NCBI GenBank assembly: GCA_001567505.1
Contig: LLEU01000010.1
Span: forward strand, 1 to 64,000
DNA from: Acidobacteria bacterium OLB17
Lineage (GTDB): Bacteria; Acidobacteriota; Blastocatellia; Pyrinomonadales; Pyrinomonadaceae
Reading direction: 5' to 3'
DNA: 64,000 nucleotides
Shown one piece after another: positions 28,095 to 41,892 of the stretch. Both the position numbers and the translations under genes were made by a program. Under the pieces are notes generated by a model. It saw only the letters and a list, made by a program, of their open reading frames with translations, was not told where the DNA came from and searched no databases. Numbering within the stretch: the stretch's first letter is position 1; the number at the start of each line of letters is the position of its first letter.

Positions 28095-29420
28095 TCAAAC
28101 GACCTCTCCGAACATAGAATTTGCTTTAACTTGTGTGACTTTAACGTTGACAATAGAGCCAAGTAGGGATCTGTCGCCGACGAAATTGACCACTTTATGG
28201 CACGTTGAGTGGCCCGTGATCCCGTTCTCGGTGCGGGCGGATGTCCCTTCCGCCAAAACTTCAAGTGAAGCCTGATGATATCGCTCTAAACGCTTGTTCT
28301 GACATGCCTTTTGGACGTTCTCAAGCTCGAGGAACCGAAGGGTCTTTTCCGCCGGCGATACGTTGTCATCCAGCTCGTGGGCCGGCGTTCCGGGCCTTGG
28401 TGAATATTTGAAAATATAGGCGCTATCGAATCCGCAATATTTCACAAGCTCGACCGTATCTTTGAAATCGGCCTCAGTTTCACCCGGAAAGCCGACGATA
28501 ATGTCCGTAGTGATCGCGATGTCGCGAACTGAGCCGCGGATCCGGTCGATCTGTTTCAGGTAACGGTCTATCGTATGGCCACGTTTCATTAGCTTTAGGA
28601 CGCGGTTGCTGCCGGACTGAACGGGCAAATGGACCCAATTGCAAAGATTTTGGTGTGTTTCGATGGCCTCGACTATGTCCTCGTGAAAATCGCGGGGAAA
28701 TGAGGTCGTGAACTTGATCCGCTCGATGCCGGTCGCCGCGACCGCTCGCAGCAACCGCGAGAAGGCCGACTTCCCTGCAAAACCTTCAAGTCCTGCTTCA
28801 GTATCCGGCTTGTAACTATTTACGTTTTGGCCAATTAGGTGGATCTCTTTTACGCCACGCCGCTTTAGTTCGAGTGTCTGCCGGACGATCTCGGCTGCCG
28901 AGAAACTGCGTTCGCGGCCGCGCGAGAAAGGCACGATACAGTAAGTGCAGAACTTATTGCAGCCTTCGATTATCGGCAGGAATGCGACGTAGGGCGAATG
29001 GCGGTGCGTATCCGCGACCGTCCAGTCATAATCGTCCTCGCGTTCACCGAGGTCAACGAGGCCCGACTCGCCGTCGATCGTTCGAGTCAAAATGTCACCG
29101 ACTCGCCCGACCGCTCTTGTTCCGACGACAAAATCCACGCCCGGGATCTTCTTAAGGAGCGTTTCTCCTTCCAACTGGGCCACACAGCCGAGCACGCCGA
29201 CCACGGGTTTGGGCCCGTCGGAGTGCCGAATTCGTCCGACCTGCGTGTAGAGCTTCTGTTCGGCTTTTTCGCGGACGGAGCACGTATTTATGAGTACGAC
29301 ATCCGCATTTTCGGCATCATTCGTAATTTCAAAACCATCCCGCCCAAGGGCCGTCGCGACGCGTTCGGAATCGGACACGTTCATTTGACAGCCATAGGTT
29401 TCGAGATAAACTTTTTTCAT
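28095..29420 (-). CDS. miaB: tRNA-2-methylthio-N6-dimethylallyladenosine synthase MiaB
   Basis: 441 residues. Radical-SAM methylthiotransferase that adds the 2-methylthio group to i6A37 of tRNAs. MKKVYLETYGCQMNVSDSE opens the UPF0004 domain, and its three Cys (CQMN, NTCSVRE, GCVAQ) bind the auxiliary cluster. The radical-SAM motif is EGCNKFCTYCIVPFSRG. VGFPGETEADF and the C-terminal TRAM domain follow. The ATG at 29420 was chosen because the UPF0004 domain begins there; longer in-frame starts would run into dnaE. Only 2 bases separate this start from the divergent dnaE start. Confidence 0.95.
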   Translation of the reverse strand: MKKVYLETYGCQMNVSDSERVATALGRDGFEITNDAENADVVLINTCSVREKAEQKLYTQVGRIRHSDGPKPVVGVLGCVAQLEGETLLKKIPGVDFVVGTRAVGRVGDILTRTIDGESGLVDLGEREDDYDWTVADTHRHSPYVAFLPIIEGCNKFCTYCIVPFSRGRERSFSAAEIVRQTLELKRRGVKEIHLIGQNVNSYKPDTEAGLEGFAGKSAFSRLLRAVAATGIERIKFTTSFPRDFHEDIVEAIETHQNLCNWVHLPVQSGSNRVLKLMKRGHTIDRYLKQIDRIRGSVRDIAITTDIIVGFPGETEADFKDTVELVKYCGFDSAYIFKYSPRPGTPAHELDDNVSPAEKTLRFLELENVQKACQNKRLERYHQASLEVLAEGTSARTENGITGHSTCHKVVNFVGDRSLLGSIVNVKVTQVKANSMFGEVV

Positions 29421-29422
29421 AG

Positions 29423-32400
29423 ATGCCGTCCAAGCCCACCACTCAAAAAAACGCGGAAAAGGACTTTGTCCACCTGCATTTGCATACAGATTATAGTCTT
29501 TTGCGGAGTACAGTCCAATTACGCCCGCTCGCAAATAAGGTTGCGGAATTGGGAATGTCGGCCTGCGCGATCACCGACCTTGGGAATATGTACGGCGCGG
29601 TCTCATTCAGCAACACAATGAAGTCTGCGGGCGTCAAGCCGATCGTCGGCTACGAGGCTTTCGTTGCTAGTGGCAGCCGTTTTGACCGCACAGCGACCGT
29701 CGCGGCCGGTGAACGTGGATTCTACGATCTTGTACTCCTTGCCGCTGACCTCGACGGCTATCGAACGCTTGCTTATCTGTCCTCGATGGCCTTCAAAGAA
29801 GGCCTTCATCACCGGCCCCGTATCGACCTCGAACTGCTTTCGGAACGTTGCAAGGGCCTGATCGCTCTTTCCGGTGGCGATAACGGTGCCGTGGCGCATT
29901 ATCTTCGGTCGGGAGATGTCCAGAAGGCTGCGGATTACGCAAGAAAACTTGCGTCTATATTCGGAAAAGAGCATTTCTATCTTGAGATGATCGAGCGCGC
30001 CGATCGCGAACTCAATGGCCAGATCGCCCGTCTCGGCAAGGAGCTTGATCTTCAGCTTGTTGCGACGAACAGCGTCTTTTACCTTGAGCGTGAGGACGCA
30101 CGCGCACGCGAAGCCCTCATCGCAATCGACGAAGGCCGAATGCTCTCGAATAATCTCGCAGATGAGCCTAATCGGTACTTGCGTTCAAAAGAAGAGATGT
30201 GGGAGCTATTCGGCGAGGATTATCCGGAAGCTCTTGAGAACACCGTAAAGATAGCGGAGATGTGCACGCTCGTCATTCCGCAAGGCGACGACGCCAGGCA
30301 GTTGCCGTCGTTCCCGATCCCGCCCGAATTTGCGTCCTTGGACGAGTACGCCTATTTCGAGAAGGTCGCTCGTGACGGCTTCGAGGATCGTAAGGCGACC
30401 GATTGGTTGCCTCTTATCGAAGCCGGTGCTTTACGGCACGGCCTCGACGTTTATGAAGCTCGACTCGTCCGCGAGATCGAGACGATCAAACGTATGGGCT
30501 TTCCCGGCTACTTCCTGATCGTCTGGGATTTCATTCGTTATGCCCGCGAACAGAATATTCCGGTCGGCCCCGGACGCGGTTCTGCCGCAGGTTCGCTCGT
30601 TGCTTACTGCCTGCGGATAACGGACGTCGATCCGATCGAGCATGATCTCCTTTTCGAGCGCTTCCTTAATCCCGAACGCATATCGATGCCGGATATCGAT
30701 ATAGATTTCTGCATACGCGGCCGCGGAGAGGTCATCGATCATGTAACAAGGCTCTACGGGCGTGATTCCGTCTGCCAGATCGTCACATTCGGGACAATGG
30801 CTTCTCGTGCAGCCGTAAAGGATGTCGGTCGCGTCCTCGGAATGTCGGTTGGCGAGGTCGAGCGCATTGCAAAACTTCTTCCGCCGCCGCGAAGGGGCCG
30901 GAATATCAGCCTCGCGCAGGCGATCAAAGAAGTGCCGGAGCTTAAGCAGATGATCGAGGCCGACGCGAGGGTGCGCGGCCTCTTCGACCTTGCACAGCGC
31001 GTCGAAGGTTGTTCCCGGCACACTTCAGTTCACGCCGCCGGTGTTGTGATCTCGCCGAAGCCGCTTCACGAACTCGTCCCGGTCGCAGTTTCGCCGAAAG
31101 ATGAACTGACGAGTCAGTATCCGATGGGCGATCTCGAAAAGGTCGGGATGCTCAAGATGGATTTCCTCGGCCTGACCACGCTTACCATCATCGAAGATTG
31201 TCTTAAGAGCCTTCAGGAACGCACCGGCACGACCATCGATTGGAAGAAGGTCCCTACCAATGACCCCGAAACGATGCGGCTTTTTGCCGAAGGCAGAACG
31301 GATGCCGTGTTCCAGTTCGAATCTTCCGGGATGCAGGAGATATGCCGTCGGATGCGGCCGGAGGACCTTGAGGATCTTTCGGCACTGAATGCTCTTTACC
31401 GCCCTGGCCCACTAGACGGCGGGATGATCGATGATTTCGTTGACCGTCGCCGCGGCTTAAAGGAAGTCGAATATATGGTCCCCGAGATGGAGGAATTCCT
31501 GAAGGCGACCTTCGGCGTTTTCGTTTATCAGGAGCAGATCATGCAGATCGCTCAGAAGCTCGGCGGGTACAGCTTGGCGATGCGGACCTGATGCGGCGTG
31601 CGATGGGCAAGAAGAAGATCGAGGAGATGGCAAAGCACCGCGACAAGTTCGTCAGCGGAGCCGTTGCACGGAAGATCGACAAGAAGATCGCAACGGAGAT
31701 CTTCGAACTGATGGCAAAATTCGCGGATTACGGATTTAACCGCAGCCACAGTATCGCGTATGCGCTCGTCGCATTTCGAACTGCGTACCTTAAGGCACAT
31801 TATCCGGCGTATTTCTACGCCGCGGTGCTCTCTCACGAAGCTCAAGATGCGGCAAAGGTCTTCAAATATTCAAACGAGCTAAGGCAAATGGGCCTTGAAC
31901 TTCTTCCGCCGGACATAAACGAAAGCGGTCTCGGATTCACGCCTTCCGATTCGGCCGTGAGGTTCGGTCTGAGCGCGATCAAGGGACTGGGCACGAACAG
32001 CATTTCCGCGATCATTGCCGCACGCGAGGCCGGCGGCCCTTTTACTTCCCTTGCGGATGTCGTTTCGCGGCTTGCACCCGGAATGGTAAATCGTCGTGGA
32101 ATCGAAGGCTTGATCGCGGCTGGTGCCTTCGACACCCTGCGCTCCGAAGGCGAGTCGCTTGAGAAATGGCGTGCCAGGCTTCACGCACATATTGGCGATG
32201 CGATCCAGGCCGGTTCACGAGCCGCCGAAGATAGGGATCGAGGCCAGGAAGGCCTTTTCGCGGCCACAAGTGATGAGGGCCTAGTTGCGGAGATCAGTCT
32301 GCCGGATGCCCCGGCCTGGACCATTGCGGAAATGGCAAAGAATGAAAAGGCCGCGATCGGTTTCTACCTCTATGCACATCCGATCGACGCCTTCGCCGCC

Positions 32401-32943
32401 GAACTCGAGGCTCTGCACGTTCCGCCGATCGCGTCAGTGGGTGATGGCGGCGCGCGTGAAGTTCGCGTAGCCGGCGTAGTCACGGCGGCCGCGGTTAGAT
32501 ACAGCAAGAACGGCAAGCGGTTTTGCACACTCAGGCTTGAGGATCGTTCGGGCGGTATAAAGTGTGTTGCGTGGTCTGAGACGTTCACGAAATTCAGCAC
32601 GCTGCTGCAGGATGACGAGGCCGTCGTGATCTCCGGCAAGGTCGAATCGGGTGAGGGCATCGAGCCGACGATAATTATTTCGACCGTCAATTCCCTCTCG
32701 GAGGCCGCGATGGCAAACGCGAGTTCGGTTTCAATAAATATCCCTGAGAAGCTTACCCGGCGGAACGAACTAGAAGAGCTTTTTGTGATCCTAACCAAGA
32801 ATCCCGGCCGCTGCGGCGTTTTTCTCGACGTTGCGGCCGAAGGCGTCGATATCAAACTCCATTCACGCGCAACGAATATCCTGCTAACACCTGCCCTTCT
32901 GAGCGAGATCAAAGCATTCGGCTGCGACGTGAAATGGGAGTAG
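29423..32943 (+). CDS. dnaE: DNA polymerase III alpha subunit DnaE, frame break near 31576
   Basis: Replicative polymerase, about 1173 codons. The PHP domain starts with FVHLHLHTDYSLLRS. Palm catalytic residues are in RISMPDIDIDFCIRGRGEVI, and VGPGRGSAAGSLVAYCL and QYPMGDLEKVGMLKMDFLGL are clear. A stop falls at 31589-31591 after GGYSLAMRT. Adding one G to TTGGCG (31574-31579) gives YSLGDADLMRRAMGKKKIEEM, which is exactly the family sequence, and the rest (helix-hairpin-helix, OB fold) reads on to 32943. The span is 3n+2. An assembly indel is far more likely than a real lesion in an essential gene. No good Shine-Dalgarno precedes ATG 29423. Confidence 0.93.
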
Positions 32944-36170: not shown

Positions 36171-36638
36171 TCATAACGAGCGTCTCATCAAAAAACCGTC
36201 CTCAGAAGGCGAACGATATAGGCCCTTTCTTAAATGTTGAACAACAAAGGAGTTACGGGCATAGAATGCGATAGCATCCGCGTTAGATACGCGGACCTCA
36301 AGCCAGATCCGGCCGACACCCGCTTCCCTGCAGCGCTCGAGAAATGAGTCGAAGAGGCGTTGGCCGTTGCCCATGCGGCGATGAACGGGGGAGACAGCGA
36401 TGTTATAGATCTCTGCGTCGGTGCCGGCCGCATCCGCGGCGGTGATAAGCCGGCCTACAACAAAGCCGACCGTGGCGTTCTCGTCTGTCTCAAGGCGCAG
36501 CATTATGGAGTTAGGATCCTTGATCTCGGCCAGGTAATCGTTCGCGGCCCACGGACTCAGGCCGGTCTCTTCGCCCAAGGCGATCAACGCCGCGATATGG
36601 ACGGCCTCGATGGGACGAATGCGAAATGGCTCAGGCAT
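36171..36638 (-). CDS. rimI: GNAT-family N-acetyltransferase, RimI-like
   Basis: 155 residues from ATG 36638. The GNAT core IYNIAVSPVHRRMGNGQRLF (acetyl-CoA loop R-R-x-G-x-G) is followed by IWLEVRVSNADAIAFYARNSF. RimI acetylates the N-terminus of ribosomal protein S18 and is often encoded beside tsaB, as here, where the start overlaps the tsaB stop by 8 bases. General GNAT function is certain, RimI specificity is likely from context. Confidence 0.8.
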   Translation of the reverse strand: MPEPFRIRPIEAVHIAALIALGEETGLSPWAANDYLAEIKDPNSIMLRLETDENATVGFVVGRLITAADAAGTDAEIYNIAVSPVHRRMGNGQRLFDSFLERCREAGVGRIWLEVRVSNADAIAFYARNSFVVQHLRKGLYRSPSEDGFLMRRSL

Positions 36639-37266
36639 TGTGGGGTTTTGATAAGAAGATCGGGTCAGAATCCGGTACTCTGGGGTCTTCAGCAGCCGAC
36701 GCGAGGAGTTCGGAAAGCACACCGGCCTCGGTCGCCGGACAGTTAAGGCCGTCTTCGATCTCGATACCGTTCGCGGTGATCAAGTGTTCGATCGCAAGGT
36801 TCTGCAACTGGCCACGCAGTTCGTTCATCGCTGAGTGCAGGATAGGTGATTCCGGTGCCGTGATCGCATGATCCGTTACCTCGAAGATCTGCGAGGCGAT
36901 CATGCCTCTGCCGACCGGAATGGAAGCACAAACGATGCCTTTTGAGGCACTCGCGATTGCGGCCAAGACCGGGATGATCCTGACCTTTGCTCCGACGGCC
37001 CTAGCGAGCCCTAACGCGGTGGAAATACCGATCCTGATCCCCGTGAAGCTACCGGGGCCTGCGGACACTACGATCGTTTTTATCTCGTGTCGAGAAATGC
37101 CGCTTTCTCGAATTAGTTCGTCGATCTTTGGCAGCAGGAATTCCGCCTTTGCGGCCGATGGTGGATCACCTGAATATGTGTGAACCTTCCCGCCGGCGCG
37201 GACGGTCACACTGCCGCCCAGAATTGACGCTTCAATCGCTAATGTGGCTTCGGTCGTCAGTCTCAC
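36631..37266 (-). CDS. tsaB: tRNA threonylcarbamoyladenosine biosynthesis protein TsaB
   Basis: 211 residues from a GTG. The ASKHA-fold signature VVSAGPGSFTGIRIGISTALGLA and an N-terminal ATLAIEASILGG strand identify TsaB, the partner that stabilises TsaD in t6A37 synthesis. The C-terminal half is shorter and more divergent than in E. coli. Its first 35 bases lie inside the end of the nucleotidyltransferase gene, a larger overlap than usual. A start further downstream would cut into the conserved first strand. Confidence 0.88.
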   Translation of the reverse strand: MRLTTEATLAIEASILGGSVTVRAGGKVHTYSGDPPSAAKAEFLLPKIDELIRESGISRHEIKTIVVSAGPGSFTGIRIGISTALGLARAVGAKVRIIPVLAAIASASKGIVCASIPVGRGMIASQIFEVTDHAITAPESPILHSAMNELRGQLQNLAIEHLITANGIEIEDGLNCPATEAGVLSELLASAAEDPRVPDSDPIFLSKPHNA

Positions 37267-38149
37267 GTTGAGGCCTATTATACGACATCGAGCGACGTAT
37301 GGAGGCCAGGCCCCGCTTGCTGAACGATCGGAGTTGATAGTGGATCCTCAGACTTGCGTCAAAGCTGCCGCCGACATCGACGGTCGAAGCGATCGGGTTG
37401 GGCGCCGTTCGCTTCCTGATCTGCAGAATTAGCTTGCGCGGATCGCGGAGGCTAATATCTAGCGGCTCAAGCTTCGAGTCAGACGCCCATTCGCGTTCGA
37501 CGCACGCAGTGAGCCATTTCGGCAACGTCTCGGCGGCGTCGGCGATCGGAGTATCACGCAGATCTAGGCCGAAATATTTAGATGCAAGGCCGATCGCACA
37601 CACGATCCAGCGTCGGCGCTTCGGTTCGACCTCATCGAGGCACATCTGCCAATTGAAAGTCTTTGGACGATTTGCTACGAGGTAGTAAATGTCCCAGAGC
37701 TTTTCGCGGTACTGTCCGCCGTCGATCAGCCAGTGAACACAGACGACCCTGAGGTGGTCCTCAGCTGAAAGGATGCGGACCGGCTCGCCGTCAAGTTCCA
37801 GCTGTTCGCAGCGGGCGAAGAGCGTTGCCCAGTCGAGTGAATCGTGGCGGGAGAATTCATTATGGAGGTCGATGACGAGTTTTCGGCCCGCGGACGATGT
37901 ACGGATGCGTTCCGCCTCTCGAAAATGCTTTGACGGGACCGCAAGGTCGATGTCCGACGAAATGCGGCTTACCATTTCGGGATACGAACGTGAAATTGCC
38001 CAGCCCTTGAAAAGCACGGGTTCGATCCCTTCCGCGTGAAAGAGTCGAAAGGCGTCCGCGATCTTCTTCTGCTGTGCCTTTCGATATATCGTTGCCCAGC
38101 GGAATTCGTCAAAGACCTCGTCTTCGTCCTGTATGGGATCGTACTGCAT
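37232..38149 (-). CDS. Nucleotidyltransferase of the NTP_transf_5 type
   Basis: 305 residues. LFKGWAISRSYPEMVSRISSDIDLAV (about residues 46-71, written as two neighbouring motifs: KGWA and SDIDL) matches uncharacterised nucleotidyltransferases of the NTP_transf_5 group. Two Asp in S-D-I-D-L and a later VIDLHNEF would bind metal, and DHLRVVCVHWLIDGGQYREKLWDIYYL is the typical C-terminal helical block. Members of this family occur in lasso-peptide and polysaccharide clusters, usually beside PqqD and HprK-like genes, as here. Its substrate is unknown. A strong terminator separates it from the upstream PqqD-peptide gene, so it probably has its own promoter or is read at lower level. Confidence 0.75.
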   Translation of the reverse strand: MQYDPIQDEDEVFDEFRWATIYRKAQQKKIADAFRLFHAEGIEPVLFKGWAISRSYPEMVSRISSDIDLAVPSKHFREAERIRTSSAGRKLVIDLHNEFSRHDSLDWATLFARCEQLELDGEPVRILSAEDHLRVVCVHWLIDGGQYREKLWDIYYLVANRPKTFNWQMCLDEVEPKRRRWIVCAIGLASKYFGLDLRDTPIADAAETLPKWLTACVEREWASDSKLEPLDISLRDPRKLILQIRKRTAPNPIASTVDVGGSFDASLRIHYQLRSFSKRGLASIRRSMSYNRPQRETDDRSHISD

Positions 38150-38192
38150 CTGTTTGGCTACAACGTAGCATGCCTTTGCAAAAGGCTCAAGG

Positions 38193-38225
38193 CAAAGAAA
38201 AAGCGGAGGCGAAAATGTCTCCGCT
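38193..38225 (-). terminator. Intrinsic terminator after the PqqD-peptide gene
   Basis: AGCGGAG (38202-38208) pairs with CTCCGCT (38219-38225) over a 10-base loop. On the minus strand the stem runs into TTTTTCTTT (about 38193-38201). It lies 36 bases beyond the stop of the PqqD-peptide gene and 44 bases before the nucleotidyltransferase start. Confidence 0.85.
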
Positions 38226-38260
38226 GAGGGTACGAATTTCCGAAATGCGGCGAGATCCGA

Positions 38261-38758
38261 TCACGCGATGCACGTAAAGGTCGGCGTCATTCCTGCGTTG
38301 TCGCACATATTTGTCGAACAATTTGTAACAATCTGAGGACAATCAGAACTTCTCGAGCAGTTGCACGACGTCGCCGCCAGAGCGCTTTGCGGAGCCGCAA
38401 GCGACGCTATGATCGGAAGAGCGGCAACGGAGGCGATGCCGACCTTCTTGAGCATTTCGCGTCGGGTGCTGCCCTTGAATCGCGGTGCGACCTTGGTTTC
38501 CAGCAGGCCCTTGCTGCTAAGTTGGTCGATGGCGAGCCAAACAAAATCTTCGGTCACGGTGCCCTTCGAGCTTTTCTCGAACTCACGAACGATATCGCCC
38601 ACCGTATTCACACCGTCACAAGACATCCAAACGAACGCGGCGCTGTCGTTAAGACAATGAGCTTTATTGGCTTCCGTGTCATAAACGAGCATTTCGCCGG
38701 GCATTTCCTGCACGACGAGTCCCCGTTTTCGAGCCTTGGGTGTTTGTAAATCTGCCAT
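38261..38758 (-). CDS. PqqD/RRE-like domain fused to a Tat-like signal and a six-cysteine peptide
   Basis: 165 residues in three parts. Residues 11-87 are a PqqD-type RiPP-recognition-like winged helix (MLVYDTEANKAHCLNDSAA, then VWMSCDGVNTVGDIV and WLAIDQLSSKGLL). Residues 97-128 look like a secretion signal placed internally: STRREMLKK, then VGIASVAALPIIASLAA and an AxA-type site (SALA before ATS). The remaining 37 residues carry six Cys (132, 134, 140, 147, 152, 163) and many Ser/Thr/Asn. A very good Shine-Dalgarno (GGAGGATC) precedes the ATG. Upstream is a HprK-like kinase gene, downstream a nucleotidyltransferase. It may be a modified, exported peptide carrying its own recognition domain, or a membrane-anchored PqqD. 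Function is unknown. Confidence 0.8.
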   Translation of the reverse strand: MADLQTPKARKRGLVVQEMPGEMLVYDTEANKAHCLNDSAAFVWMSCDGVNTVGDIVREFEKSSKGTVTEDFVWLAIDQLSSKGLLETKVAPRFKGSTRREMLKKVGIASVAALPIIASLAAPQSALAATSCNCSRSSDCPQIVTNCSTNMCDNAGMTPTFTCIA

Positions 38759-38780
38759 TCTGATCCTCCGATAAAATAAA

Positions 38781-38806
38781 GGCGTAAAATATAACGCTAA
38801 AACGCC
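38781..38806 (-). promoter_or_regulatory. Hairpin between the HprK-like and PqqD-peptide genes
   Basis: GGCGT (38781-38785) pairs with ACGCC (38802-38806). On the minus strand it is followed by TTTATTTTAT and then the GGAGG of the PqqD-peptide gene. It could be a weak terminator/attenuator or a processing stem that sets different levels for kinase and peptide. Confidence 0.45.
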
Positions 38807-38811
38807 ATATT

Positions 38812-39612
38812 CTACAAAACTTTCGTCAGGTACTGCAAGAAAATTTCTGCAAAGCGCGGCGCGTGAGTTCGCTTTGATCTAATAATTAGAGCATTTTCCA
38901 TCACTCGCTGCATCACCCGAATTGAGTATGCCGAGTTAATTCTAATTGGGAGTGTAAACGGCGTGAGCGTCATCATCCCTTCCGCCGGCGTCAGTATTCT
39001 TGGCCGAAATCTCGCATTTTCCGCGTATTTCGTAAATAAGACGGCTCCGACCGGCATCGGCGAGCTTGCCGCCTTATCCGTTGAGACATCGACATTATAA
39101 GGCCTGTACCTGCCGTCGTCGGTCCGCATATTGATCGGCCGAGCGTAAGGGTGGACGAATCCACGCTCGTCAAGTATAGCAAATTCGTCGGAAAAATAGG
39201 TGGCCCCGCGTTTTACGAGTTCGAGGACGAGCGTCGATTTTCCCGAGAAGCTGTTTCCAGGGATGAGTAGTGCTCGTCCATTGATCCCGACCACGCCCGC
39301 ATGTACGAACACGCGGTCGGGACAGTGCTCGCCGATCCTAACGCGCAGGTAGCTGTCAAAATATTTGAAGACCCCGCGTGCGATCTCGTGGTGAGTGATG
39401 AGCTCACCATTGTGCTCGAAGAAGTAGCCGTGTTCGTTGTTCTTGCCGAAAACAAATACGTGTTCGGCCGGCCTATTCGACGGCTGCAGATCTCCAAGAA
39501 GCGACCTGCGGGCAGTTTCGATCGCCCGCTCCAAAATGCGGGCATTTCTGGATTCGAACCGTATTGCGAGGCCGAAGGAGACGAAGTCGAAACGGTGCGA
39601 GGACAACGCCAT
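38812..39612 (-). CDS. HPr-kinase-like P-loop protein
   Basis: 266 residues from ATG 39612, which overlaps the stop of the WbpL-like gene by one base (TAATG). VFVHAGVVGINGRALLIPGN, then SFSGKSTLVLELVKRGATYF, forms a Walker A (GNSFSGKS, about 119-126), and SDEFAILD (141-148) takes the place of the HprK acidic motif. This is the HprK C-terminal fold without the N-terminal HprK domain. Related kinases phosphorylate lasso-peptide precursors or occur in exosortase-type polysaccharide clusters. Here the likely substrate is the neighbouring PqqD-peptide, by inference. A longer in-frame start at 39840 lies within the previous gene and codes for unlikely sequence. Confidence 0.8.
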   Translation of the reverse strand: MALSSHRFDFVSFGLAIRFESRNARILERAIETARRSLLGDLQPSNRPAEHVFVFGKNNEHGYFFEHNGELITHHEIARGVFKYFDSYLRVRIGEHCPDRVFVHAGVVGINGRALLIPGNSFSGKSTLVLELVKRGATYFSDEFAILDERGFVHPYARPINMRTDDGRYRPYNVDVSTDKAASSPMPVGAVLFTKYAENARFRPRILTPAEGMMTLTPFTLPIRINSAYSIRVMQRVMENALIIRSKRTHAPRFAEIFLQYLTKVL

Positions 39613-40643
39613 TATTCGGAGATCCTCCGAGGTGCGGTAATGAGTTCGACGCCTAGCAAGATCACGCATATCGCCGCAGCAGCGATCCAGGCCGGGATCA
39701 AGCTTTGGCCGATCGCGGGCATCGTAACCGCGACGACACCGCCCGCGAGAGCAAGAAATCCATAGAAGATCGAGACTGTCGCATGTGAATATCCCCGACG
39801 CACAAGCTGCTGATAAATATGGCTCCGATGCGCGTGCCAAACTTTCTCACGCCGCAGAAGCCGCCTTACGAGCGTGTAGAGCGAGTCGAACAAGAACGGC
39901 CAAACAAGGAAGCAAGCGAGCGGAAGGCCGATGGTCCTGATCCCCGAACCGTTCGGGGCGAGCAGGCCTATGCTAGCGAAAGTGAATCCAAGAAACGCGC
40001 TTCCGGCATCACCCATAAAGATCTTTGCGGGCTGCCAGTTGAAGACGAGAAATCCGAGCGATGACGCGAATATCACACTTGCCAAAATCGCGAGTTCTAC
40101 CTGCCCGGAGATCACGCCGAGGACGCACCAACCGGCCGCGGCAGCCAGGGCCTGTATCCCCGCGATGCCGTCAATGCCGTCCATAAAGTTGTAGGCATTT
40201 ATGAGCCAGACGATAAAGAGCAGTGAGATACCGAACTCGATAACGCTCGAAAGTTCAGCCTGCTGACCGCCAAAAAAGATCGGGAATGGGCCGCGATCGA
40301 TAAGCACAATGGCGGTCGCGACGGTGTGAACGGCGATCCTGACGAAAGGCGGGAGCCCTCGCAGATCGTCGATCCAACTGATAGCGACGACAAGGACGGC
40401 ACCGGCGACGAAACCGTAAGAGATGGTCGAATGAGCGGAAGTCGAATAGATTACGAACGCGGCAAGTGAAATGCACGCGATGACTATCCCACCGCCTCTT
40501 GGCGTCGGAAGAGAGTGGGAACTTCGCTCATTCGGGACATCGAGGATCCCCTTTGCCAGCGTCCATCTGCGCACAAGGAAAACGCCTGCGGCCGAGACCA
40601 CAAAGACGATCACCGCCAAAATTGTTAGTACACTTGGATTCAC
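39612..40643 (-). CDS. WbpL/WecA-like undecaprenyl-phosphate sugar-1-phosphate transferase
   Basis: 343 residues, polytopic MraY/WecA superfamily enzyme that starts lipid-linked oligosaccharide synthesis. Signatures are LDVPNERSSHSLPTPRGGG, ISWIDDLRGLP (metal-binding DD), NAYNFMDGIDGIAG and IFMGDAGSAFLGF, plus LVRRLLRREKVWHAHRSHIYQ with the conserved HxHxxH-like motif. WbpL-type enzymes prefer UDP-N-acetyl-6-deoxyhexosamines, consistent with the UDP-L-amino-sugar cassette upstream. Its start overlaps the stop of the preceding glycosyltransferase by 4 bases. Confidence 0.9.
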   Translation of the reverse strand: MNPSVLTILAVIVFVVSAAGVFLVRRWTLAKGILDVPNERSSHSLPTPRGGGIVIACISLAAFVIYSTSAHSTISYGFVAGAVLVVAISWIDDLRGLPPFVRIAVHTVATAIVLIDRGPFPIFFGGQQAELSSVIEFGISLLFIVWLINAYNFMDGIDGIAGIQALAAAAGWCVLGVISGQVELAILASVIFASSLGFLVFNWQPAKIFMGDAGSAFLGFTFASIGLLAPNGSGIRTIGLPLACFLVWPFLFDSLYTLVRRLLRREKVWHAHRSHIYQQLVRRGYSHATVSIFYGFLALAGGVVAVTMPAIGQSLIPAWIAAAAICVILLGVELITAPRRISE

Positions 40644-41892
40644 CCTAGCAACGTCCTCCGATACGCCGATAGTGCGGTTTCAATAGAATACTTCTCAATA
40701 GCAGCGATGCGGGCTCGCTTGCCCATCTCGGCGAGCTTGTCCTTGTCCGATGCGAGCCGCTCGAGGGCCGTCAATAGGCCGCGGGGATCGCCCGGTTCAC
40801 AGTTCACGCCGACGTCGTCGTCAGAGATGACAAGATCGACCTCGCTTCCCTGTTCGCTGATCGCAAGGATCGGCTTTCCCGCAGCGAGAATGTTGTACGT
40901 TCGGCTCGGCATCGATACGCCCTTCATCTGCGGAACGAGCGACACGATCGCTGCATCACACGCGTTCAAGAACACGATCTGCTCGGAGCGCGGCCGTGGT
41001 TCCAAAAGTGTGATGTTCGAGAGTGCGTTCTCGGCGGCAAACTTTTTTACGAAGGGCAATTTAACACCTGTACCCAAAAAGACAAAATGGAACTGCGACG
41101 CAGGGTCGGCATCAAGAGCCTTGGCGGCCGAAAGTATCGTGTCGATGTCGTTCGGGTAGCCCATATTGCCCGCGTAAAGCAGCACGAACCGGTCTAGAAG
41201 GCCGAGTTCACGAAGCAGTGCGTTCTCGGACCTCGGCCGCGGCTCGACCGTCTCAAGCTCGGCCCAATTTGGAATAACGGTTATCGGAGTATCAAGGCCC
41301 AGTGTTTTCCGGCTTAAAAGCTCGTGCATATCGCGACCGACCGCGATTATCCCGGAGGTATGCTTATAGAGCCAGCGGTTACAAAAGCCAAGAAACCTTG
41401 CGATCAGCCCGTTCGGACGTGCTTTTCCGGCCGCTATAAGGATCTCCGGATAATTGTCGTGTACCAGCAGCGTGTACGCCGCCCCGCGAAATATCGCTGC
41501 GACAGCGACTATGAACGGCATCGTCGGCGGATTCGTGACGACAAGGACGCGATCACCTTTTCTAAGCGACGGAACGCGAGCAACAGCATTGAGCAGCTCA
41601 ACGTAAGCATGTTAACGATCCGGAACGCGATCACATTCTTGTTCAGGGTGGTCCCGGCAGCCCGAAAGATCTCGACGCCGTTCAGAACCTCGTGTTTTGG
41701 TGCCTGTGTGCCGCGGGCCGAGTAATTCGGCTGGCCGCAAAGAGCCTTGACCTCGAACGTATCGGTCAAACCTTCGGCGATCTTTGTCAGGTAATAACCT
41801 GTCGACGTCATCTCCGGAAAATAAAGCTCGGAGACCACCCAGAGTCTCGGCTTTGGTTCGGATGACGATCGTTGGCTTAGTTTATCGGACAT
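40640..41892 (-). CDS. Family 4 glycosyltransferase (WcaI-like), frame break near 41563
   Basis: About 417 codons. The N-terminal part reads WVVSELYFPEMTSTGYYLTKIAEGL and CGQPNYSARGTQAPKHEVLNGVEI, a WcaI-type opening, then breaks after LLLAFRRLEK. One extra A in CTTAGAAAA (coding strand, near 41563) gives RKGDRVLVVTNPPTMPF, which leads straight into the C-terminal part (VHDNYPEIL, FVLLYAGNMGYPNDID, GVSMPSRTYNILAAGKPILA with the GT-B nucleotide-sugar site). The span is 3n+2. It transfers a sugar during assembly of the surface polysaccharide. It overlaps the next upstream glycosyltransferase stop by 11 bases. Confidence 0.85.

Follow-up and report, generated by a model that had tools for sequence, protein, structure and literature searches.

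We analysed a 64,000-nucleotide stretch of the genome of Acidobacteria bacterium OLB17 (contig LLEU01000010.1, positions 1 to 64,000; hereafter the window), which carries a minus-strand gene trio encoding, in transcription order, an HprK-like kinase, a PqqD-domain protein and an NTP_transf_5 protein. We judge the chances to be roughly even that the middle gene encodes a peptide precursor, whose PqqD domain would be a folded leader and whose cysteine-rich tail would be a disulfide-rich core, modified by the neighbouring enzymes and exported by the twin-arginine translocation (Tat) pathway. This proposal builds on the observed architecture of the protein, the co-conservation of the three genes, a contrast in conservation along the protein, a terminator behind its gene, an expansion of orphan copies and intact active-site residues in both enzymes. 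At the sequence level, the system displays two features of a ribosomally synthesised and post-translationally modified peptide (RiPP) system, namely a conserved leader and a variable core in a gene-encoded precursor, and co-encoded enzymes with predicted intact active sites.

A preliminary description of this DNA had placed the PqqD-domain gene between the kinase and NTP_transf_5 genes, within a polysaccharide locus, and had suggested searching for the trio in related genomes. This arrangement was confirmed from the sequence and from Pfam and NCBIfam matches (Table 1), and the same setting held in loci across the family. Among 119 genomes of the bacterial family of the source, the PqqD protein was present in 84, the kinase in 82 and the NTP_transf_5 protein in 83, with all three genes together in 74 genomes and none of them in 30. 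These co-occurrences (pairwise Fisher P from 2e-20 to 1e-15, uncorrected for phylogeny), to which several exceptions were fragmented assemblies, support the three genes as a co-conserved module. Gene order was compared in the first 60 loci, about 20 of them chosen as orphan paralogues, and the trio was strictly contiguous and in the same order in 27, with variants that included a duplicated PqqD gene (L052), a duplicated kinase gene (L091, L138) and a PqqD gene ahead of the kinase (L086, L136). The trio sits at the end of the polysaccharide locus across the family, between constant flanks composed of epimerases, glycosyltransferases and a WecA-like transferase upstream, and tsaB, rimI, ssb and accA downstream. 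Named relatives at about 80% identity were Pyrinomonadaceae/Acidobacteria metagenome-assembled genomes. Full-length relatives were also recovered from further families within the class and from a few lineages elsewhere in the phylum, and none was found in phage records.

The 165-residue PqqD protein matched PF05402 at residues 22-62 (E 7.6e-7, 29.8 bits for a Pfam cut-off of 23.4). The NCBIfam profiles of ScmD, PQQ PqqD, lasso PqqD and PqqD_rel_X gave weak matches to members of the family, and a profile search of the PDB returned PqqD 5sxy, also weakly (E 0.023). An AlphaFold prediction of the PqqD protein from six sequences, that of the window and five relatives, had a mean predicted local distance difference test score (pLDDT) of 37.3 and was set aside; the order of its strands and helices, loosely similar to that of a RiPP recognition element (RRE; three strands and three helices), was given no weight. 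A fulvocin-C-related match (E 0.016) that recurred in 1 of 20 members was likewise dropped.

Behind the PqqD domain, all the elements reported in the preliminary description were present in the same protein, namely the STRREMLKK motif, a hydrophobic run, an AxA site and a 37-residue tail with six cysteines. The arginine pair was invariant in 95 of 95 homologues (consensus S-R-R-[EDQ]-[VL]-[IL]-[KR]-K) and was located at about residue 98 in nearly all members. Across the same homologues, the number of tail cysteines was even in 93 and ranged from 6 to 20, one tail having 4. Cysteine made up 15% of the tails, which were also rich in Gly, Ser, Ala, Thr, Pro and Asn and almost devoid of Lys, His and Trp, compared with 1.9% cysteine in the N-terminal part. 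The invariance of the arginine pair, the even cysteine counts and the cysteine enrichment of the tail argue that the motif, the hydrophobic run, the ALA site and the tail are not a product of chance. The genome also encodes TatC (E 1.4e-64), so that a twin-arginine motif, a hydrophobic run, an AxA site and a TatC gene are present together, and the tail is predicted to be of an exported, cysteine-rich type in which paired cysteines are expected.

Conservation was unevenly distributed along this protein. Across 21 loci of the genus, mean pairwise identity reached 72% in the signal and 62% in the PqqD domain, against 45% for the NTP_transf_5 protein, 37% for the kinase and 26% for the tail once the shared cysteines were removed. 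Within the genus, both enzymes are thus less conserved than the domain and the signal, while the tail between its cysteines is hypervariable. Between close pairs, nonsynonymous divergence (dN) of the tail was mostly several-fold that of the PqqD domain (e.g. 0.35 vs 0.04 for L080/L082); positive selection is not claimed, because synonymous divergence was saturated in the tails of many comparisons. This combination of a conserved domain and signal with a variable tail supports, at the level of sequence, a precursor with a leader and a core.

The tails also differed in type, and several of the full-length relatives from beyond the family had knottin-like ones. An inhibitor cystine knot (ICK)-like cysteine pattern was observed in 19 of 95 tails, and a C-6-C-5-CC-3-C-4-C spacing occurred in several genera. 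One acidobacteriotal tail (L170:9551-10042) exceeded the cut-off of the Pfam Omega-toxin (omega-atracotoxin) family (23.4 vs 22 bits), with a clear six-cysteine knottin spacing. The tail of the window, with its 1-5-6-4-10 spacing, matched no toxin family in Pfam and does not follow an ICK spacing. Outside the phylum, a megaplasmid of the completely sequenced, named strain Gemmatirosa kalamazoonensis KBS708 (Gemmatimonadota; L193:6568-8543) carries an HprK-like gene directly upstream of a gene encoding a PqqD domain, an arginine pair and a cysteine-rich tail, with a distant NTP_transf_5 relative nearby on the opposite strand. A PqqD domain with signal and variable tail beside an HprK-like kinase is thus the most widespread core of the system.

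Both enzymes look active from their residues. The kinase matched NCBIfam HprK_rel_A (TIGR04352; E 1.7e-14) with 53.6 bits, far under the cut-off of 200, Pfam Hpr_kinase_C (E 4.4e-5) under its cut-off, and the PDB HPr kinases 1jb1/2qmh (E 0.013); because the two family scores lie under their cut-offs, we name it HprK-like and not a certified member. Its Walker A SxxGK motif and SD aspartate varied hardly or not at all across 46 relatives, and K48-G49, D66xD68 and D94xH96 of the NTP_transf_5 protein were invariant in 46 of 46 relatives. The preliminary description had associated these enzyme families with lasso peptides, and the literature provides the precedent: according to a review of lasso peptides, an HPr-kinase homologue phosphorylates a C-terminal serine, and in pseudomycoidin the phosphate then receives one or two hexoses from a nucleotidyltransferase (PMC8498205). 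In two loci (L091:7225-10379 and L138:7235-10435), the PqqD gene is flanked by two HprK-like genes, of which the second is a diverged paralogue that scores 198 and 167 bits, vs 287 and 286.

Beyond the syntenic locus, genomes G007 and G034, from two genera, each contained at least 30 copies of the PqqD-type gene, scattered and mostly solitary, these counts being lower bounds (43 and 48 first-look candidates, of which 30 were scored). The tails of the expanded copies are longer, with 6 to 20 cysteines, and the genes surrounding the orphan copies were unrelated, no constant partner being found beside them. By contrast with this multiplicity, G034 encodes one kinase and one NTP_transf_5 protein, adjacent and with no PqqD gene between them, and G007 gave one strong kinase match. 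Many dispersed copies with variable cores for a single enzyme set is the pattern of substrates. In a tree of the PqqD domain and signal, copies from G007 and G034 intermingle; part of the expansion thus seems to predate the separation of the two genomes. Several orphan copies of G034 and G007 (L060, L065, L066, L071, L131) lie near genes of extracytoplasmic function (ECF) sigma factors (PF07638) and of Ser/Thr protein kinase type, a proximity that could reflect regulation or merely a pair common in those genomes.

The ratio of one kinase to at least 30 copies also bears on how the PqqD domain would work. The preliminary description had proposed a peptide-modifying module in which the recognition domain, fused to its own substrate, makes the peptide self-recognising. 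Co-conservation, the leader and core pattern and the orphan expansions fit a precursor, whereas the self-recognising receptor is disfavoured by this ratio, for which reason the domain looks more like a folded leader for enzymes acting in trans.

Expression signals are consistent with a highly produced precursor. The Shine-Dalgarno sequence of the PqqD gene is strong (CGGAGGATCAGAATG), as already pointed out in the preliminary description. In the window, the fold of the gap between the PqqD and NTP_transf_5 genes contains a hairpin, although the z-score of the whole gap is only -1.55, and the consensus terminator scanner did not list this hairpin. Terminator-like structures were found in 16 of 25 such gaps, against 6 of 92 other same-strand gaps (Fisher P 4e-9) and an average of 0.5 per 25 shuffled gaps, and they differ in sequence between loci. 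This supports a predicted transcription of the peptide gene in excess of the downstream NTP_transf_5 gene. The earlier suggestion that the peptide is made in excess of the enzymes can thus be retained with respect to the nucleotidyltransferase and not to the kinase: its gene precedes that of the PqqD protein, and the terminator therefore separates the peptide gene from the nucleotidyltransferase gene only.

Under a precursor model, the RRE-type PqqD domain would act as a domain-sized folded leader that stays in the cytoplasm, on which the HprK-like kinase and the NTP_transf_5 protein may dock in trans. There, the kinase would most likely phosphorylate serine or threonine residues of the core, which the NTP_transf_5 protein might decorate further, possibly with a sugar on the phosphate as in pseudomycoidin. 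The core would then be exported by Tat and released by signal peptidase cleavage after the AxA site, its cysteines pairing outside to give a disulfide-rich miniprotein, presumably knottin-like in some lineages. The strong ribosome-binding site and the 3' terminator would set the precursor gene for a high output, and the final role would be extracellular, perhaps antagonistic or surface-associated.

Several observations weigh against this model. Tat signals do not usually have a 97-residue folded domain ahead of the twin-arginine motif, no serine or threonine position is common to all tails, and the C-terminal serine targeted by lasso kinases occurs in just 3 of 95. G007, with its expanded copies and its kinase, gave no NTP_transf_5 match, and this step would thus be dispensable at least there. 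In a few distant relatives the tail is free of cysteine or missing: two loci of G131 (L182:9639-10304, L181:2608-3423) encode PqqD-RR-AxA proteins with cysteine-free tails, one of which is a long TTTADPG-type repeat of Thr, Pro, Gly and Asp that looks like a glycosylation substrate, the tail of G251 is almost nil and that of G343 is short with two cysteines. The tails therefore do differ among homologues, but the three genes are co-conserved, whereas the preliminary description would have abandoned its proposal for unrelated or absent tails coupled with a lack of co-conservation. Finally, the genes are inherited vertically and in synteny within a polysaccharide locus, as would be expected of an envelope component rather than of an antimicrobial.

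Such a component is the strongest rival explanation, although we hold it to be rather unlikely. Its PqqD domain would lie in the cytoplasm and its disulfide-stabilised tail in the periplasm, the whole protein serving as a membrane-anchored adaptor that the kinase phosphorylates to control or anchor the polysaccharide which the neighbouring glycosyltransferases produce, and no peptide would be released. This would account for the nearly fixed place between the WecA-like transferase and tsaB across genera, for the vertical inheritance and for the PqqD and membrane regions being the most conserved parts. Families related to HprK and PqqD are also found within named cellular systems, HPr-rel-A among them. 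It would not readily account for hypervariable tails framed by cysteines, for dozens of dispersed copies distant from polysaccharide genes, or for the persistence of the kinase and NTP_transf_5 genes in those genomes with expanded copies where most glycosyltransferases are gone from the locus (L121, L122).

This last observation also counts against an exported cysteine-rich family without dedicated chemistry, in which the PqqD domain would be a chaperone keeping the tail reduced before Tat export, and the two enzymes would serve the polysaccharide pathway, being neighbours by history. The missing NTP_transf_5 match of G007 and the orphan copies devoid of enzyme neighbours are compatible with this scenario, but the three genes are present or absent together across genomes, and we regard it as the least probable of the explanations considered here. 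Only slightly less improbable in our view would be a conventional RRE acting in trans, which binds the leader of another peptide, encoded at a different site, and delivers that peptide to the kinase and NTP_transf_5 protein, with the tail as a disulfide-capped membrane anchor. PqqD domains do usually work in trans as discrete RREs (PMC12710340); however, the gaps on either side of the PqqD gene, mostly below 120 bases, leave little space for a separate precursor, and an anchor needs neither conserved cysteines with hypervariable loops nor dozens of copies.

The putative precursor system shares parts with several known ones. Pseudomycoidin and paeninodin lasso clusters likewise assemble an HprK-like kinase (K), a nucleotidyltransferase (N) and a PqqD-type RRE (B1) around a ribosomal peptide (PMC8498205), but here the RRE is fused to the peptide, with a twin-arginine export signal and a disulfide-type core. 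Pfam scans of the recurrent neighbour clusters, which returned glycosyltransferases, epimerases, tsaB, rimI, ssb and accA, contained no asparagine-synthase-like lasso C cyclase, B2 protease or ATP-binding cassette (ABC) exporter, no targeted whole-genome search having been made. The HPr-rel-A system also pairs an HprK-like kinase (TIGR04352, kinase A) with a PqqD-family protein (TIGR04353, PqqD_rel_X), yet neither cut-off is reached here: TIGR04353 had no match in the OLB17 genome and none above cut-off in 10 relatives, and its model spans 74 positions, so that the signal and the cysteine tail lie outside it. The SynChlorMet cassette combines an HprK-like ScmC and a PqqD-like ScmD, and includes radical S-adenosylmethionine (radical-SAM) enzymes. 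ScmD was the best-scoring NCBIfam PqqD profile, matching 20 of 20 members scanned, but scores are far under the ScmC and ScmD cut-offs, and no radical-SAM enzyme was found beside the trio of the window.

Structured, domain-sized leaders have precedents in the NHLP and Nif11 families (PMC2887384, PMC12455567), prochlorosins included, which resemble the present system in their hypervariable cores and in the way that few enzymes serve many substrates dispersed over a genome (PMC2887384, PMC10783134, PMC12455567). Unlike them, the leader here would be an RRE-type PqqD domain followed by a Tat signal; PqqD was the only leader-side Pfam domain found, an NHLP or Nif11 domain being absent, and neither lanthionine nor azole enzymes were encountered close to the genes. 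Knottins share the six-cysteine spacing of some relatives' tails and differ from these bacterial, PqqD-led proteins with Tat-type export. Fusions of RRE domains to enzymes are well documented, and according to a 2025 survey, 21% of PF05402 proteins are longer than the discrete size and have no other annotation (PMC12710340). The open-licence literature yielded no account of an RRE joined to a Tat-exported cysteine-rich core, and nothing on HprK with PqqD and exosortase, on an HprK-related kinase or on Pyrinomonadaceae with PqqD. We regard it as a RiPP-like system with a structured leader, for which there is a fair chance of a new class. The complete proposal remains tentative and rather doubtful, i.e. 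a new ribosomal peptide class with a folded PqqD leader and Tat-exported, disulfide-rich and partly knottin-like cores, dozens of different ones in one genome, that one HprK-like kinase and an NTP_transf_5 protein phospho-glycosylate in trans.

In the window, the trio belongs to a longer minus-strand series comprising, in transcription order, the WecA-like transferase, the HprK-like, PqqD and NTP_transf_5 genes, tsaB and rimI, the kinase start overlapping the stop of the WecA-like gene (TAATG). Elsewhere, dnaE (28998-32943) is split over three frames relative to an intact 1320-residue relative in L084, with breaks near 29400 and 31579, probably through assembly indels or gene decay. A glycosyltransferase (40640-41892) is frameshifted near 41560, whereas L037 has a single 421-residue gene; this split is another sign of indel errors in the assembly, and the trio is intact.

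Table 1. Position of the trio, its sequence elements and its neighbours in the window
Feature	Position	Strand	Evidence
HprK-like P-loop kinase gene, 266 aa, first of the trio	38812..39612	-	HprK_rel_A, Hpr_kinase_C and PDB matches
PqqD-domain, twin-arginine signal and Cys-tail protein, 165 aa, proposed precursor	38261..38758	-	PF05402
NTP_transf_5 nucleotidyltransferase-like protein, 305 aa	37232..38149	-	PF14907, E 1e-21, above cut-off
Shine-Dalgarno GGAGG of the PqqD gene, 6 bases ahead of ATG	38765..38769	-	Sequence
PqqD (RRE-type) domain, residues about 9-90	38489..38734	-	Pfam match at residues 22-62
Twin-arginine motif T-R-R-E-M-L-K, residues 98-104	38447..38467	-	RR invariant in homologues
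Hydrophobic run and ALA signal-peptidase-like site, residues 105-128	38375..38446	-	Sequence; conservation in the genus
37-residue tail, six Cys (C-1-C-5-C-6-C-4-C-10-C), proposed core	38264..38374	-	Cys kept, remainder hypervariable
Intrinsic-terminator-like hairpin and T-run, PqqD-NTP_transf_5 gap	38195..38225	-	Gap scan; hairpin in fold
WecA-like glycosyltransferase family 4, upstream neighbour, polysaccharide locus	39612..40643	-	PF00953, E 4.6e-37; position kept across the family
tsaB, housekeeping, conserved downstream neighbour	36631..37266	-	TIGR03725, above cut-off

RRE domains are known as receptors by which enzymes hold the leader of a peptide, and here a domain of this receptor type forms one protein with the presumed product in more than 90 homologues bearing the hallmarks of a precursor family. 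If the precursor reading is true, it would add a new type of leader, tie the peptide chemistry of kinases and nucleotidyltransferases to Tat export and open a large set of bacterial cystine-rich miniproteins. For the Acidobacteriota of soil and water, this would mean a large and so far undescribed family of predicted exported, disulfide-rich small proteins.

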